Positions 3,526 through 35,086 of a stretch of 64,000 nucleotides of DNA are shown here, in pieces. The stretch spans positions 2,060,663 through 2,124,662 of the forward strand of contig NC_092089.1 of NCBI RefSeq assembly GCF_045679555.1, read 5' to 3'. A program made the position numbers and the translations under genes. Below the pieces are notes generated by a model. It was not told the origin of the DNA. It did no database searches and saw nothing but the letters and a program-made list of their open reading frames with translations. Each line of letters begins with the position of its first letter. Position 1 is the first letter of the stretch. This DNA is from Salvelinus alpinus (lineage: Eukaryota; Chordata; Actinopteri; Salmoniformes; Salmonidae).

Positions 3526-3696
3526 TCCTTTTAAAATAACACTTCAGCAAAGTCTTTTGTATGCAAATCTAGAAAGGTTGACTGCATTATGTACAGTAAA
3601 TGCAGACTGCTGAGTGCAGCCAGTGGACGTGGGACTCCTGAAGGTCGTCTCGCACCAGGTCCATGAGGCATCCATGATGTCACAAGGGTCACGGAC

Positions 3697-6600
3697 TCAG
3701 AGCTCCGTCATCAGGAGAGCCCTGAGAATCTTCTCTCTGCCCAACCTCATCTCTTCCCCGCTAAACACAGACACACACACAGACAGACACACACACACAC
3801 ACACAGATCATCAAGAGGAATGTTACATGACTGAGATTTGTGTGTTAAGTGTGTCTGTAACCTGAGTGTGTCTGTAACCTGAGTGTGTGTGTAACCTGAG
3901 TGTGTGTGTAACCTGAGTGTGTGTTACCTGTTGGTGTGAGAGGCGAGGCAGGGTACCAGGGGAGGGATGGAGGTGTGGTAGTAGGAAGGGGAGAGGTGGG
4001 GAGAGGCAGAACGCTCACAGCATGGACTCCTCAGCTCCAGTATCGGCATGTCCATCTGCAACACACACAAAACAGTTTAGTTCACAATCCACTATTATCC
4101 TGGTATTTGCTTAGAAATGACAAGGCTCTGATCCAAATGGGCAAATGCTCTGCTATGAAAAGTGTGTGTTGCTGAGTGCTCTGGGGTATGATAACCTGTG
4201 TGTTTGTTTCCTGAGGGTATATGGAGGGTTGTGTCTGGTTGTCCAGTGAGTTGTTAGATCCACACTTCCCAGTGCTCCGGGAAGAGATCGCTGCAAGGGC
4301 CTCTGGGAGATTATCCTCGTCCTCATGGTTACTGAGGACCAATTACAGGACAGTGTTCAGCCACAGCATTCTAATGTATCACGAGTAGTGAATAACTAAC
4401 ATCATAGGTTTTTGTGTAGAGTGGCTAGGTTATGACAGTACTTTGAGTACAGGACACAGCTGTGAGCATCGTATGGAATCCCAGAGCAGGTTGTGAATAC
4501 CCTGCCATACTTACAAGCTGAACTGCCTGACCAGTCTTTTCCTGCGGTTGGTGTTAGGGTTCGACTTGGCGGGTCTGTCTGTGGTTGAGTTGTGGTCAGG
4601 GCGGAGGGATGTTTTCTCTGTGGTCAGACTGGAAGTGGCAGAGTCTCTAGAGTCCTGACTGGAGCTCTGATACCTGAGACACACACATACCATTATCATC
4701 CACCATCAAACACACACACTGGGAGGAGTATTGTATCACTGCTACTACTGGCCTGTCATTGATCTCCTGACTACAGGTCTTCCCTCTGGGCGTCAGCGGA
4801 GCATCCTTCATCAAGAGAGGAAGAAGAGGAGAGGACAGGAGGATGACAGAGGAGAAGAGGATGACAGAGGAGAAGAGAAGGGGAGGATGGGAGAAGAGGA
4901 GAGGACGATGACATAGGAGAAGTGGAGGATGAGAGAGGAGAAGAGGAGAGGACAGGAGGATGACAGAGGAGGATGAGAGAGGACAGGAGGATGACAGAGG
5001 AGGATGAGAGAGGAGAAGAGGAGGATGAGAGAAGAGGAGAGGACAGGGGGATGACAGGAGAAGAGGAGAGGACAGGAGGATGACAGAGGAGGATGAGAGA
5101 GGAGAAGAGGAGGATGAGAGAAGAGGAGAGGACAGGGGGATGACAGGAGAAGAGGAGAGGACAGGAGGACGACAGAGGAGAAGAGGACAAGAGAATGAGA
5201 GAGGATGTAAGCTTTTACACGGCTACTGCAAACACACACTCAATAGGGTCAGAACTCACTCTATAGACAGCCTCCATCACTAGGTGTCAGTACTCACTCT
5301 ATAGACAGCCTCCATCACTAGGTGTCAGTACTCACTCTATAGACAGCCTCCGTCACTAGGTGTCAGTACTCACTCTATAGACAGCCTCCATCACTAGGTG
5401 TCAGTACTCACTCTATGGACAGCCTCCGTCACTAGGTGTCAGTACTCACTCTATAGACAGCCTCCGTCACTAGGTGTCAGTACTCACTCTATAGACAGCC
5501 TCCATCACTAGGTGTCAGTACTCACTCTATAGACAGCCTCCATCACTAGGGGTCAGTCCTCACTCTATAGACAGCCTCCATCACTAGGGGTCAGTCCTCA
5601 CTCTATAGACAGCCTCCATCACTAGGGGTCAGTACTCACTCTATGGACAGCCTCCGTCACTCACTAGGTGTCAGTACTCACTTTATAGACAGCCTCCATC
5701 ACTAGGGGTTAGTACTCACTCTATAGACAGCCTCCGTCACTAGGTGTCAGTACTCACTCTATGGACAGCCTCCGTCACTAGGGGTCAGTCCTCACTCTAT
5801 AGACAGCCTCCATCACTAGGGGTCAGTCCTCACTCTATAGACAGCCTCCGTCACTCACTAGGTGTCAGTACTCACTTTATAGACAGCCTCCATCACTAGG
5901 GGTTAGTACTCACTCTATAGACAGCCTCCATCACTAGGGGTTAGTACTCACTCTATAGACAGCCTCCATCACTAGGGGTTAGTACTCACTCTATAGACAG
6001 CCTCCATCACTAGGGGTTAGTACTCACTCTATAGACAGCCTCCATCACTAGGGGTCAGTACTCAGTCTATAGACAGCCTCCATCACTAGGTGTCAGTACT
6101 CAGTCTATAGACAGCCTCCATCACTAGGTGTCAGTACTCACTCTATAGACAGCCTCCATCACTAGGGGTTAGTACTCACTCTATAGACAGCCTCCATCAC
6201 TAGGGGTCAGTACTCACTCTATAGACAGCCTCCATCACTAGGGGTCAGTACTCACTCTATAGACAGCCTCCATCACTAGGTGTCAGTACTCACTCTATAG
6301 ACAGCCTCCATCACTAGGGGGCAGTACTCACTCTAAAGACAGCCTCCATCACTAGGTGTCAGTACTCACTCTATAGACAGCCTCCATCACTAGGTGTCAA
6401 TACTCAGTCTATAGACAGCCTCCATCACTAGGGGTCAGAACTCACTCTATAGACAGCCTCCATCACTAGGTGTCAGTACTCACTCTATAGACAGCCTCCA
6501 TCACTAGGGGTCAGTACTCAGTCTATAGACAGCCTCCATCACTAGGGGTCAGTACTCAGTCTATGGACAGCCTCCATCACTAGGGGTCAGTACTCACTCT

Positions 6601-9600
6601 ATAGACAGCCTCCATCACTAGGTGTCAATACTCAGTCTATAGACAGCCTCCATCACTAGGTGTCAGTACTCACTCTATAGACAGCCTCCATCACTAGGTG
6701 TCAATACTCACTCTATAGACAGCCTCCATCACTAGGGGTCAGTACTCACTCTGAAGACAGCCTCCATCACTAGGTGTCAGTACTCACTCTATAGACAGCC
6801 TCCATCACTAGGGGTCAGTACTCACTCTAAAGACAGCCTCCATCTGAGCTTTGAAGATGTTACACTTGAGATGGTCTGGAGGGCTGCGGGGAGAGGAGGG
6901 CTGGAGAGACTTCTCAGACAACTGCTTCTCCTCTGCCTGAGAGATGAGAGATGAGAGATGGAGTCCAAATGTGTATTAAAATAACTGCTAAAATATGTCT
7001 GACCTGGTGTGTAACCGTACCTTGTTGTCCATGTTGACATGTAGTGAAGGCCAGGGAGAGGTGTTGCTGTCTGTCTCCAGGGGGTTGAGCAGACAGAGCT
7101 CCAACTCATCTACAGGACAGGGAGGGGCTCTGTGTTCTAAACACACACACAGTGTTAACATATAACCTGGCTGCCGTGGTGTCTGTAACCTGCCTGCCGT
7201 GGTGTCTGTAACCTGGCTGCCGTGGTGTGTATAACCTGGCTGCCGTGGTGTCTGTAACCTGCCTGCCGTGGTGTCTGTAACCTGGCTGCCGTGGTGTGTA
7301 TAACCTGGCTGCCGTGGTGTGTATAACCTGGCTGCCGTGGTGTCAGTAACCTGGCTGCCGTGGTGTGTATAACCTGGCTGCCGTGGTGTGTGTAACCTGG
7401 CTGCCGTGGTGTCTGTAACCTGGCTGCCGTGGTGTGTATAACCTGGCTGCCGTGGTGTCTGTAACCTGGCTGCCGTGGTGTCTGTAACCTGGCTGCCGTG
7501 GTGTGTATAACCTGGCTGCCGTGGTGTGTATAACCTGGCTGCCGTGGTGTGTATAACCTGCCTGCCGTGGTGTCTGTAACCTGGCTGCCGTGGTGTGTAT
7601 AACCTGGCTGCCGTGGTGTCTGTAACCTGGCTGCCGTGGTGTGTATAACCTGGCTGCCGTGGTGTGTATAACCTGGCTGCCGTGGTGTGTATAACCTGCC
7701 TGCCGTGGTGTCTGTAACCTGGCTGCCGTGGTGTGTATAACCTGGCTGCCGTGGTGTGTGTAACCTGGCTGCCGTGGTGTCTGTAACCTGGCTGCCGTGG
7801 TGTGTATAACCTGGCTGCCGTGGTGTCTGTAACCTGCCTGCCGTGGTGTCTGTAACCTGGCTGCCGTGGTGTGTATAACCTGGCTGCCGTGGTGTGTATA
7901 ACCTGGCTGCCGTGGTGTGTATAACCTGGCTGCCGTGGTGTCTGTAACCTGCCTGCCGTGGTGTCTGTAACCTGGCTGCCGTGGTGTGTATACCCGTGTG
8001 TGTGTGTATACTCACTGTTCTTGCTGTGTGTGTGACAGTAAGTCTCCTGGCTGTTGTCGTAGTGTGTGTGTCTGCGGTGGCGATGGTGTATGTTTCCAGA
8101 GTACGGCGTCTCGTTCTCCTCAACACTGAACTGCTGCTCCCCTCCCAGGACAGGACCACTCAGAGGGAAACTGGGGACAGCACATCACACTCACTCAAAC
8201 CCAGTCCAGAAACCCAGAACCAGACCAGCACCCTGTTCCACCTTCATTACCACAGTAACACCAGTTTTTAAAACCTCTTTGGTACACAGGCTGCTGAGGG
8301 GAGAGCAGCTCATGGAAACCACGTTTGATAACATTCTATGAGCCCATCTTCCCCAATTAAGGTACAATCAGCCACCTGTGCTTTGGTAGTCGGTGTGTGG
8401 TCTTGTGTGTGTGTGTGTGTGTATGGCACACCATTTTAACAATCAATCAGTGTGTGTGTGTGTGTACACGTGTACATTATTCAACTTCAGTGAAGGAGTT
8501 TAAGCAGTGTGTTTATTCAACAAGGCTGTAGCAACCAATCTAAGGCTGGTTGTGATAAGAGTAACAATTTTAAGGCAACAGGAAGGAATGTTGAGCATGA
8601 AGAGGATGTAAACACAATCAGCATTAACACAGGTAAACAAGGCTATTGATCTATGGGGGTTGATTAAGCTGAGTCAGAACCCCTCACACACAACATTCAT
8701 GTCTCTGAAGAACAAAGGCAGATATGGAAGTCTTGAGTCTATCGCTGCATAACATGACACCCTATTGTACTGTATATATTGCTGATAAGGATTTAACAAG
8801 AACATTTTCCTTCATCGTTTAGCTGAGATTTCCAAAGTAGCTATATTCCCCTACAGATGTAATGTAGAACCATGTGACCCCTAGTTACAGCAGTTTATGA
8901 TGACACAGACTACTTCACACACTCAAATGATTGGCATCTTACATTCAAACAATGAATCCTGATCTAGGATAACTTTTAAAACATGAAATTATTTGGCTTG
9001 CTCTAAAAGGATTTGGCTAAAAGCAAATCTACCCGCTAATAATTTTGTAAAGCATAAACGGAATTTCAATCTCACCCAGTTACATTTGAGGACTTTGTAG
9101 CATTCAGCCACTAAAGTATCAACAACAATTACATGAACTAACAAGGCACTGAACATCAAACATCATGGTCCAATCCACTAGGACAGAGATCTCTCTATGG
9201 TCTCTCTGTGTTTAACGTCTCTCTCTTTCTGTTAGGAGTCTCTGTCTCCACAGCATGGTGGTGGTGATCTGATGGAGAAGACACATGGTAGACAAGGCTG
9301 GTGTGTAATGATGGTGATGATGAGGAGGGTGATGAGGAGGAGGATGGCGAGGTATTTTGGTCCATGAGTCCACAACCAGAGTGTTTCTCTGTCCCCCAGT
9401 CTCTCTCTGTCTTCTGTATTCCAATTGTCTCCTATGCATGTGTGTATGCGTTAGAGTTTAGATTTAGAGGTGGGTTTGGGACAGGGTCCTGGGTCAGAGC
9501 TATAGAGGTTAGGGTGGAGGGGTCAGAGTGCAGTCATGACCTTGTCTCTGTACACAACACTGATGGATCCTGGGAAAGACCCGCTGGTCCTCTCTGGTAC

Positions 9601-12600
9601 TGACCGATGACTGGGCTCTTGACTCACTGCTACTGCGGCAGGCGCTCTGGACATGGGAAATTACACACATGGTACGCATACAGACACGGTAAGCATACAC
9701 ACACACAGCCTGTCTAAATGATGCAACACATGAATGATGTAACAGTGATATGAAGTGAAAGAGACATTCAAAAATAAAAAGATAGTGGAGATACCTGGCA
9801 GAGAGAAAGAGAGCACCTCTGAAATGAGAGAGAACTCTGGGGGCTAGGGGGACTCACTATACACCATTAAGAAGACAACTGCCTTACCTATGTGTGCGTC
9901 TGTCTGTCTGTCTGTCTGTCTCACCTGTGCGGGGATGTGTGTCCTGAGTGTTGTAGGTAGATGGGGGGTGTGAGGGCTGGGTGCCAAGGCTCCTGGGCTA
10001 TAGGGATGTTACGCTGGTACTGAACAGAGATAGATGGAGAAAAAGACTGAGAAAATTATATTCAGTTGAATATTGCAGATGCATTGCCATGGTAATCAGT
10101 CACAAAGGTATCCACTGACGTTTTCCTTTTTAACCTTCATATCCATGAGGAACCATTGTGTGTGTGTGTCTTACCGGGTGTAGACTAGGTTCGGGGCTGG
10201 TGTGGGCGCTGAAACAGAACAATATAACTGCTCAATAAGATTACATTTACATACAGATCATTAACCGAAACATATCTTCAATTTACTTACATTGTTATAA
10301 AATGTACATCTAGCTCATTACCATACTGCTCTGTAACATGAATAGAGGCGTAACATACAACTCCTTCAGAAAGGACTCACACCCCTGGACTTTCTCCACT
10401 TTGTTGTGTTACAGCCTGAATTAGAAAATGGATTAAATATACATTTGTTTTGCTCACCGGCCTACATAAAACACCTCATAATGTCCAAGTGGAATTATGT
10501 TTTCAGAAATGTTTACAAATTAATTACAAATCAAAAGCTGAAATGTCTTGAGTCAAGAATTATTCAACCCCTTAGTTTTGGCAAGCCTAAATAAATTCAG
10601 AAGTAAAAATGTGCTTAACATTTAAAATAAGTTGCATGGACTCACTGTGTGTGAAATAATAATATATTTTTTAAGACTACCTCATCTCTGTACCCCACAC
10701 ATACAGATAATTGTAAGGTCCCTCAGTCGAGCAGTGAAATACAAACAGATTCACCCACAAAGACCATGGAGGTTTTACAATGCCTCGTAAAGAAGGGCAA
10801 CTATTGGTATTTATTTTTATTTTTTATAAAGCAGACATGGAATATCCCTTTGAACATGATGAAGTTAATAATTACACTTTGGATGGTGTACCAATACACC
10901 CAGTCACTACAAAGATACAAGCGTCCTTCCTAACTCAGCTGCCAGAGAGGAAGAACACTGCTCAGGGATTTCACCATGAGGCCAATGGTGACTTTAAAAC
11001 AGTTAAAGAGTTTAAGGGCTGTGATAGGGGAGAACTGAGGATGGAAAAACATTGTAGTTACTCCACAATACAAACCTAATTGACGGCGTGAAAAGAAGGA
11101 TGCCTGTACAGAATACAAAATATTCCAAATATTCCTCCTGTTTGCAACACGGCACTAAATACTGCAATGTGGCAAAGCAATTCACTTTTTGTCCTGATTA
11201 CAAAGTGGTATGTTTGGAGCAAATCAAATATGCAACACATCACCAAATACCCCTCTGTATTTTCAAGGATAGTGGTGGCTGCAGCATGTTATGGGTATGC
11301 TTGTAATTGTTAAGGACTGGGGAGTTTTTCAGGAAAAATAAGAAAATGTAATGGAGCTAAGCACAGGAAAAATCCTAAAGGAAAACCTGGTTCAGTCTGC
11401 TTTCCACCAAACACTGGGAGATTAATTCACCTTTCAGCAGGACAATGACCTAAAACACAAGGCCAAATTTATACTGGGGTTGCTTACCAAGACAGTGAAT
11501 GTTCTGAGTTATAGTTTTTACTTAAATCTACTTGAAAATCTATGGCAAGACCTGAAAGTGAAAATGGTTGTCTAGCACTGATCAACAACCAATTTGACAG
11601 AGCTTGAAGTATTTAGAAAAAAATTAATAGGCAAATGTTGCACAATCCAGGTGTGGAAAGCTCATAGAGACTTACCCAGAAAGACTCTGGCAAAGGTGAT
11701 TCTAACGCTGCCAAAGGTGATTCTAACATGTATTGACTCAGGTGGTTGAATACTTATCTAATCAAGATACATTAGTGTTACATTTTTACAAATGTTAGAA
11801 TTTTTCTACCACTTTGACATTAGTATATTTTGTGTAGATTGTTGACAGAAAGTTACAATTAAATCCATTTAAACCCACTTTGTAACAACAACATGTGGAA
11901 AAAGGTCAAGGGTGTGCATACTTTCTAAGGGCTCTGTACATGCTTGGTTGTCCTGTGCTCTCAGGGACCCACCTGATATGTGGTGGTTTGGCTGGAGAGA
12001 GGGCTGTAGAGAGAGAGAGAAAGCCAGGTTAAATCAGGTCAGTGAATCAAGCACAGGAGAATTGACATGGGAAACTGCCTGTAAGGGTGTTTTACTGTAT
12101 GGGGGAACTGGGAGCTATAGGGATGTAGAGCTGTAGGGTATAGGATATAGTGTGTACTGGGGAGAATATACCAACCCTTGCCCCCCAGTGAGTGAGTGCG
12201 GGAGGGGTATCTCTTGCTGGGTCGCCTCTCAAACGTACTGGCCCTCCTCAGCCTCCCTCCGTGGGTCGCCTGGTACTCAGTCTTTCCACTGAGAAGGAGA
12301 GAGCAAACACTTTAAAGGGATACTTCAGGATTTTGGCAGTGAGTCAGATTAACTCGTTGATACCATTTTTATGTCCCTGCTGGGAGCTGTAGGGTATAGG
12401 CTATAGTGTGTACTGGGGAGAATATACCAACCCAGTTTAAAGGAATTTGCTAACTAGCTTTAGCGTAATTGCTAACTAGCATTAGCACAATGATTTGAAG
12501 TCTATGGTAACTGCTAGCATGCTAGTAGATCTCATAGACCTCCAATCATGTGCTAATGCCAGTTAGCATTGGCTCGTAAAACTGCTGATAACTTCCTTAA

Positions 12601-15600
12601 TACTGGATGCAGATACATAAAAATGGTATCGTTGAGTCAATCTGACTCTGGGGAAGTAGATAAAGGGCTTCATTGCCAAAACCCCCAAGTTTCCCTTTAC
12701 CGACGATGAACAGTAGCTGGCATCTCTGTATTTGGCATGTCAGGATGTACAGAACATTTACATGACTCAACATACTGTGTCCCTGTATGTTGGTGATAGA
12801 TGCATGGAAGAGTGTGTATATCTGAAGAGGTCATTTCAGTTTGACATGTAAACAAACGGCATTTCCCTGTAACCATAGCTTCCATCATGTAACCATAGAG
12901 ACAGAACTTGCATCTCGGATGGCGCACTAGTCCTCAGTTAGTGCACTACTTTTGACCAGAACCCTACCTAGTCTCAGAGTGCATCCAACACGGCACTCTA
13001 TTCACTATATAGTGCACCCTAGAACTCTGGTCAAAAGTGGTGCACTATATAGGGAATAGGGTGCCATTTTGGGCACAACCTCTGTTGTAGAGTTGAGTGT
13101 TGGTGCGAGCCCCACCCACCTGAACCTGAAGCGTGATCCAAGGCGTGTGAAGTCACTGCTGGAGGCCTTCCCAGCAGTGGGCTGGCGCAGCCGGAAGAAG
13201 GCGTGGCTCTCCACAGCACATTTCCACAAGTGTTTACACGTCTTCGAACTGTCCAATTGGAACACAAAGGTGTGCTCCTGCTCCCGCCCCTAAACACACA
13301 ACAGCCAATCACAATCAAACACCACTCCGACAAAAGCAGTCCAAATATTTCAATGTCAATGAAATGGTCTTTGTTGTCAAGTCAAAAGGTGAAATAGGGG
13401 GCGATCACATACAAGTGTGTAGCCTGTAAATGTGTGGTGCTGTGAAATGGAAATGATTTTCTTTGCATATATGAGACACCCTCGGAGAGTGGGGTCATGG
13501 GCAGGGGTATTTGTGTATTGCTCACCTGATCATCGTCCTCCGTCACCACTAGGGTGAGTCGACTCTTTTTGAAATCCAGGCGGGTGATCTTGGGCCTGGA
13601 ACACACACAGTTGACATTGCAGACTACGCAGCTGTTTTCAAGAATATATCATTGTGTGTTGGAGTGTTCATGTCAAAGTGTGTGTGTGTGTTTACCAGAA
13701 GAAGAGGCCTATCTTGGTGGAGCCCTCAAACACCAGGATGCCAGTGGGAGTGAGACCCAGAGCGTACTCCGCTCCGTCCCTTCCCTGAGGACGACACAGT
13801 CACACACGCTCAGCGCTACTCTACAACACAACTCTCTTCAAAAACATCAAACACTGACAACAGCAGCACACGCACCAACCTTGACAAAGTGCATGTCCAC
13901 TCCGTACAGCTCCAGCCATTTACACTTGTTGAGGAAGTTTGTCTCTGCCTGGGATGGATCCTTACCCCTGGGGAAACACAACCACATGCTCAGTCTCTCT
14001 CTAACACACATACCCTGCACCCCGGGTGGAATGTCCTCCATACTTCTTGCAGTAATCCAGTTCAGATGTACACAACAGATTAGGGCCTAAGGGTTTATCT
14101 GGCCAATAGAGAGAGAGCGGAACTCAGTAGGGTTTCTCTTTGGTTTCTCGCTTCCACTGGTGTCATGTCAGCTCAGTGAGCCCCAGTGTATGTGTGTGTA
14201 ATCTGTGTGTGTAATCTAATCTGAGATTGGAGCGATCATACACTAGCAGGGTTAAATACTGCCTGGATTCAATCAAGACGCTCCAGGGATTAATCCCTTG
14301 ATCCGTCACACAGACAGAGGCAAACAGAGAGAGATAGAGGGAGAGGGAGAGAGAGATAGGGAGAGAGGGAGAGAGAGATAGAGAGGGAAATCTACATTGG
14401 TGTTTTCTAGTGCTGTATCAAACCTGAGTGATACACTCCTCTATCTGAGTTGATGTTAAAGAACCAGACATTGTTCATGTGGTTATCACCTGTCCTGTGT
14501 TCTTAACCAGACACACCTACAGTCTGTTCAGACAGACACCAGTGGAGATGTCCTGTGTTCTTATCCAGACACACCTAGTCTGTTCAGACAGACACCAGTG
14601 AGGATGGTTGGATGGCGTTTTAACTCACCTTAGGTCCACCCACTTGTTAAAGATGTCTGCCTCCATGGTCTCACTCTGTTTGGGTGTGAAGCGGAACTCT
14701 GACACCAGCTCAGGAGAATGCTCTAGAGGGTCACAGTCCCCCAGCTCACCTACACACACAAGCACGCACGCGTTATAGTCAGGTGTAAAAGAAACATGAA
14801 TGCTGATTCCAGAGATACCGTAGTGTGTAAATCATCACCTACTCTGTAAGCAGTAGGCCCCCAGGTCTACTGAGACATCATATGGACACTTCAACCTGGA
14901 GGGAGAGAGGAAGGTTCCAGAACAGAGAGATCACACCAAATGCAGCGTTACTTCCAACACTGTGTGTAAGTATGTAGTGCATTCAGAAAGTATTCAGACC
15001 CCTTGACCTTTTCCACATTTTGCTACGCTACAGCCTCATTCTAAAATGGATAAAATAAAAATGTCCTCATCAATCCACACACAATACCCCATAATGAAAT
15101 AACAAAAACAGATTTGAAATAGTATTAAAGTAGTATTTAAAAATAAAACTGAAATATTACATTTACATAAGTATTCACACCCTTTACTCAGTACTTTGTT
15201 GAAGCACCTTTGGCAGCGATTACAACCTCAAGTCTTCTTTGGTACGACGCTACAAGCATGGCACACCTGTATTTTGGGAGTTTCTCCCATTCTTCCCCGC
15301 AGATCCTCTCAAGCTCCGCCAGGTTGGATGGGGAGTGTCGCTGCACAGCTATTTTCAGGTCTCCAGAGATGTTCAATTGAGTTCATGTCCAGGCTCTGGC
15401 TGGGCCACTCAAGGACATTCAGAGACATGTCCCGAAGCCATTCCAGCATTGTCTTGGCTGTGTGCTTAGGGTCATTGTCCTGTTGGAAGGTGAACCTTCG
15501 CCCCAGTCTCAGGTCCTGAGCGCTCTGGAGCAGGTTTTCATCAAGGATCTCTGTACTTTGCTCCATTCATCATTCCCTCGATCCTGACTAGTCTCCCAGT

Positions 15601-24005: not shown

Positions 24006-35086
<11,081 letters not shown>

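Follow-up and report, generated by a model that had tools for sequence, protein, structure and literature searches.

We analysed a 64,000-nucleotide stretch of the Salvelinus alpinus genome (the window), in which the minus strand carries a gene whose FERM_M, FERM_C, and FA domains (Pfam query) lie on the same strand upstream of the exons considered here, with tyrosine phosphatase exons farther upstream. The best solved relatives of the phosphatase were PTPN3 and PTPN4, whose catalytic domains tied at 135.6 bits, with a long PTPN3 entry reaching 142.4. PTPN3 presumably lies beside EPB41L4B and PTPN4 beside EPB41L5, an arrangement that fits, but does not prove, an epb41l4b-like identity for the host gene. 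The features of the locus are as follows, with a slash marking each splice site here and below.

7021 to 7109, minus strand: exon A, an upstream coding exon of 29 protein letters, read from the sequence and matched in a second copy of the gene.
6826 to 6936, minus strand: exon B, 111 nt, 37 codons, phase 0, AEEKQ...KAQMEAVFR, from translation and from homologous exons with a similar 3' end in two epb41l5-like paralogues.
6820 to 6828, minus strand: authentic donor AGA/GTGAGT, the exon ending at 6826 and the intron starting at 6825, a position backed by the paralogue's AAG/GTACTT.
5238 to 6844, minus strand: 38-bp junction minisatellite of 42 units, from Tandem Repeats Finder and splitting at the unit core.
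6782 to 6790, minus strand: first decoy donor (unit 2), with the same 9-mer as the authentic donor (AGAGTGAGT), 38 nt beyond it.
4815 to 5207, minus strand: another tandem array within this intron, 393 nt long, with 90% pyrimidine and zero AG when read on the gene strand.
4515 to 4666, minus strand: exon C, with its in-frame acceptor CAG at 4669-4667.

Tandem Repeats Finder placed the junction array at 5246-6844 with a period of 38, 41.9 copies, and 94% matches. Splitting at the unit core gave 42 head-to-tail units, 39 of them 38 bp long and two (units 26 and 31) 42 bp long, with unit 42 diverging in its final third and fading out near 5238, in good agreement with the initial annotation, which had described about 42 units of 38 bp. 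The array starts inside exon B (6936-6826), and its further repeats all lie in the intron. The real junction itself forms unit 1, made of the exon's final 18 bases (ATGGAGGCTGTCTTTAGA, 6843-6826) and the intron's initial 20, and the array runs directly onward from it into the intron, so that the unit does hold a coding exon's 3' end plus its GTGAGT donor and is continuous with the junction, as had been proposed. The likeness of the exon end to the array is not due to chance, because unit 1 matched the array (itself excluded) at 40 positions with at least 33/38 bases and at best 37/38, against a maximum of 23/38 over the rest of the minus strand of the window and 22/38 on the plus strand. Branch-point-like TACTGAC or TACTAAC motifs occurred in 32 of the 42 window units with CCTAG shortly after, and a branch-point role was set aside since the A seems too near the AG of CCTAG to serve that AG. 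A coding array was also rejected, with 68-72 stops per frame and a longest open stretch of 18 codons on the minus strand, and 28-30 stops per frame and a longest open stretch of 51 codons on the plus strand.

The intron between exons B and C is 2159 nt long, and the donor array and the pyrimidine array together account for about nine tenths of it. The pyrimidine-rich array (4815-5207) ends about 150 nt ahead of exon C, which is preceded by tandem acceptors 7 nt apart (CAG/GTATCAG/AGC, window 4675-4667), of which the second alone keeps the frame after exon B. Use of the AG at 4675-4674 gives the exon start of 4673 listed in the initial annotation, and the reading frame then closes after eight codons. 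The start that keeps the frame is 4666, 7 nt further.

A second copy of the gene was found at 27.70 Mb on the window's own contig (C4), 25.6 Mb away, and a protein search placed the exon set at these two places only (6 matches, both on C4). Among the stretches compared, copy 2 was collinear with the window over about 3.5-29.8 kb and over 35.0-36.5 kb. When the comparison was made in 500-bp segments, 52 of 61 were matched, with substitutions of 0-7.2% and a median near 1.9%, and 9 had no match in the part of copy 2 compared. Because this divergence is patchy and some patches, such as window 4000-4500, contain no substitutions, the mosaic suggests that sequence has been exchanged between the gene copies. 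One stretch of about 1.0 kb, introns included (window 3810-4829), differed from copy 2 by only 2 substitutions and some gaps and looks like the product of a recent gene conversion. The C4 pair may represent a homoeologous pair or a large segmental duplication, both being possible.

Copy 2 carries an array of its own at the same junction, with 41 units, and an assembly artefact is unlikely because the arrays stand at two separate places. The authentic 9-mer AGAGTGAGT was present in 19 of the copy-2 units, while 14 had no GT at the donor and 8 carried other GT-bearing cores. We distinguished 20 unit types in the window and 17 in copy 2, and since just 8 were common to both, the arrays appear to turn over faster than their flanks. 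Types A and T, which open and close the arrays, are among those shared, with the interior order reshuffled. In copy 2, units 1 and 2 are identical, and therefore the junction unit itself joins in the turnover.

The FERM_C exons of two further genes, on contigs C14 and C20, were 62 and 66% identical to that of the window gene, respectively, and we infer that these genes are epb41l5-like. Each has an exon homologous to exon B, reading KAQAEAALK/GTACTT in phase 0 with the end GCAGAGGCTGCCCTCAAG in C20 (tblastn E 1.6e-4) and KAQAALK/GTACTG with the end GCTGCCCTCAAG, two codons shorter, in C14 (E 0.002); the E-values of these matches are weak and the junctions were partly read by eye. The unit core GGAGGCTGT was absent from the gene strand of both 60-kb paralogue stretches, and no comparable array was found within 4 kb after the homologous exon in either gene. 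In C14, a 33-bp, 13.9-copy array (L021:51-509) precedes the exon homologous to exon B by about 400 bp, its period a multiple of three and the array possibly coding.

Because the two epb41l5-like paralogues share a like junction without an array, the simplest reading is that the exon end predates the array and was the template from which the array was copied. The converse reading, in which a satellite that already existed inserted next to the exon and came to resemble the exon end only secondarily, has in its favour the abundance of minisatellites in the region. It appears extremely unlikely, as a whole-genome search with the junction sequence found the unit (at least 33 matches) only at the two C4 places, which are the two copies of the gene (counts are lower bounds, very common words having been skipped), and the exon end has counterparts in the array-free paralogues.

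The donor cores of the 42 window units were AGAGTGAGT in 30 (the authentic donor included), AGAGTGAGG in 4, AAAGTGAGT in 2, and AGACTGAGT, which has no GT, in 6. Downstream of the authentic donor, 29 of 41 units thus carry an identical 9-mer, bearing out the initial annotation's dozens of donors behind the real one, and 6 of 41 have lost the GT. The GT-less, or dead, units are 6, 8, 9, 12, 20, and 21 in the window and 3, 5, 6, 9-12, 14-17, 23, 25, and 29 in copy 2. These donors had been called near-perfect, a description that proved too strong. With an approximate donor matrix, the authentic donor and every other AGAGTGAGT scored 6.66 against the maximum of 12.61 for CAG/GTAAGT, and the predicted duplex with U1 was -7.9 kcal/mol for the array donor and -14.0 for the consensus. 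Two other donors of the same gene scored 7.9 and 7.1 and the paralogous donors of the epb41l5-like genes 5.0 and 3.8 with this matrix. The decoys are therefore equal to the real site in strength and moderate in quality.

On the gene strand, the array of 1608 bp held 34 sites scoring at least 6.6, or 21 per kb, about ten times their density elsewhere on the same strand (2.1 per kb). A cluster of this kind could act as a platform on which uncut donors bind U1 and either aid exon definition or suppress premature polyadenylation farther downstream, the latter having been put forward in the initial annotation. The authentic donor does not have the consensus at positions -2 and -1, so help of this type could matter, and the short and long isoforms of human EPB41L4B differ by polyadenylation site, although the parts of that report we consulted make no link to this intron (PMC5778607). 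However, a scan for the two hexamers AATAAA and ATTAAA found neither over 3600-6825 of the gene strand, leaving no obvious target for telescripting to protect, and the three AATAAA motifs within 3600-15000 (8517, 10815, and 10821) all lie upstream in the gene. The donor cores are also not conserved, 14 of 41 being dead in copy 2, and overall we regard a U1 platform as very unlikely.

If the decoys were maintained, their donor positions might be expected to vary less than the rest of the unit, and no such sign of preservation was found in either gene copy. With the first and last units omitted, 3 of 9 donor positions and 9 of 29 other positions were variable in the window, compared to 3 of 9 and 7 of 29 in copy 2. 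Mean diversity at donor positions was 0.059 against 0.056 elsewhere in the window, and 0.109 against 0.036 in copy 2. Conservation of the decoys is disfavoured by these data, since donor positions vary as much as the others in the window and more in copy 2. Selection on decoys was also considered from the position of the dead donors, which lean toward the exon in both copies (rank-test p of 0.038 in the window and 0.003 in copy 2). Circular shifts that keep blocks intact reached the observed lean in 5 of 41 cases for the window and 3 of 40 for copy 2, and because the units are copied in blocks and the lean fails this block-preserving test, we do not claim it. Taken together, the moderate strength of the donors, the loss of GT in 6 of 42 and 14 of 41 units, and the absence of constraint at donor positions leave a functional role for the decoys unsupported. 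That both gene copies have kept about forty units could nevertheless reflect retention by selection.

We then considered what the use of a decoy would mean for the message. Eight combinations of donor and acceptor were examined (units 1-4 with 4666 or 4673), and the only one that stays open is unit 1 with 4666. With units 2, 3, and 4, translation ends after VSTDP whichever acceptor is used, and later units, as well as the retained intron, would stop in the same way, for the initial 18 intron bases are common to all of them. Variable donor choice, as raised in the initial annotation, would thus be a poor source of protein variety, because units 2-4 give a premature stop and no open reading frame. 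Decoy splicing or intron retention is predicted instead to lead to nonsense-mediated decay (NMD) or to truncation behind the FERM-FA part of the protein.

The array may recruit U1 or allow leaky splicing from decoys, and a stronger form of the latter holds that some transcripts splice from repeat donors and that the number of repeats sets the level of epb41l4b output by way of unproductive splicing. We consider this rather unlikely. It accords with the 29 of 41 decoys that equal the authentic 9-mer and with the early stop of every decoy product tested, and it has a parallel in the human CBS gene, where a junction VNTR is said to carry a donor in every unit and where the title of a 2001 article by Lievers ties reduced CBS activity to that VNTR, activity reportedly falling as repeat number rises. 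Against it, the nearest decoys face an equally strong site at the very end of the exon, and the CBS link is one of association.

Based on these data, we favour, as likely, an origin by duplication of the junction followed by growth into a tolerated array. A 38-bp stretch over the old exon-intron junction of the epb41l4b-like gene would have been duplicated in tandem and would have grown to about forty units, on the intron side only, by slippage or unequal exchange. Unit 1, which provides the genuine exon terminus with its donor, would remain under selection, with the other units drifting and being homogenised by exchange, so that their donor cores are kept only as copies. Splicing would occur mostly from unit 1 because it is the exon's own end, and leakage to decoys would add 38, 76, or more nt followed by an immediate in-frame stop after VSTDP, yielding targets of NMD or rare truncated protein. 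The array is most likely a junction minisatellite that spreads by itself and is mainly tolerated, perhaps mildly leaky, and any drag that it exerts on correct splicing would be no more than mild and would depend on its length. One consideration counts against this explanation: among equal donors, the intron-proximal site is often favoured in splicing, and therefore use of the decoys would be predicted.

Arrays of this kind have a human precedent, and our array belongs with it. The 31-bp VNTR of CBS, c.1444_1467+7(16_21), has 16-21 units that differ by single nucleotides, its name covers 24 bases of exon and 7 of intron (PMC2630376), and it has been placed at exon 13-intron 13 (PMC1395315). From the parts of these reports consulted, the CBS unit, like ours, joins an exon end to an intron start and is repeated in tandem over a junction. 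The array described here differs in having 42 and 41 units, mostly of 38 bp (18 exon and 20 intron bases), and in lying in another gene and animal group, in two gene copies of one genome. It is unusually long, with more units than the human case. A second CBS variant, c.844_845ins68, creates nearby duplicate sites, termed splice donor sites in the portion of the report seen, of which the distal is strongly favoured (PMC2630376); it shares with our locus the duplication of a splice junction, although the CBS case is not an array. The literature searched, as far as its sources were available to us, held no donor-bearing or junction-spanning minisatellite beyond CBS and, among salmonid intron minisatellites, nothing on epb41l4b. 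The initial annotation's statement that no such case was described may therefore hold for epb41l4b, whereas the arrangement itself was already known from CBS.

The surrounding region is rich in minisatellites, with 56 arrays in 231.5 kb when a period of 15-100 and three or more copies were required. Donor-like sites scoring about 6.6 or more on either strand were found in 14 of the 56, both junction arrays included. Compared to ordinary intronic minisatellites here, the junction array is therefore alike in period range and in carrying donor-like sites, which are common among them. To our knowledge, no other surveyed array is continuous with an exon end, the exons of the region being mostly unannotated, and the unusual feature is this continuity and not the presence of a donor-like site in the unit. 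Two other arrays in the window were recorded. A 58-bp unit at 14491-14600 starts 28 nt beyond a FERM exon's donor, which lies outside the array, and is present in 1.9 copies in the window and 7 in the second gene copy. A 29-bp unit at 30252-34486 forms a very homogeneous array of 146 copies (98% matches) about 6 kb from the phosphatase exons.

A bolder proposal is that the exon end and the array evolve jointly, with exchange renewing the last codons and the donor and the number of live decoys in each gene copy tuning the loss of epb41l4b message to unproductive splicing. We think this unlikely. If true, array length would set the output of a cell-polarity gene within a genome that has been duplicated. 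The locus offers a natural experiment in donor choice, in which about forty near-identical donors follow one exon in two differing patterns of live and dead units, and it bears on whether junction minisatellites lower the output of their genes, as has been suggested for human CBS.
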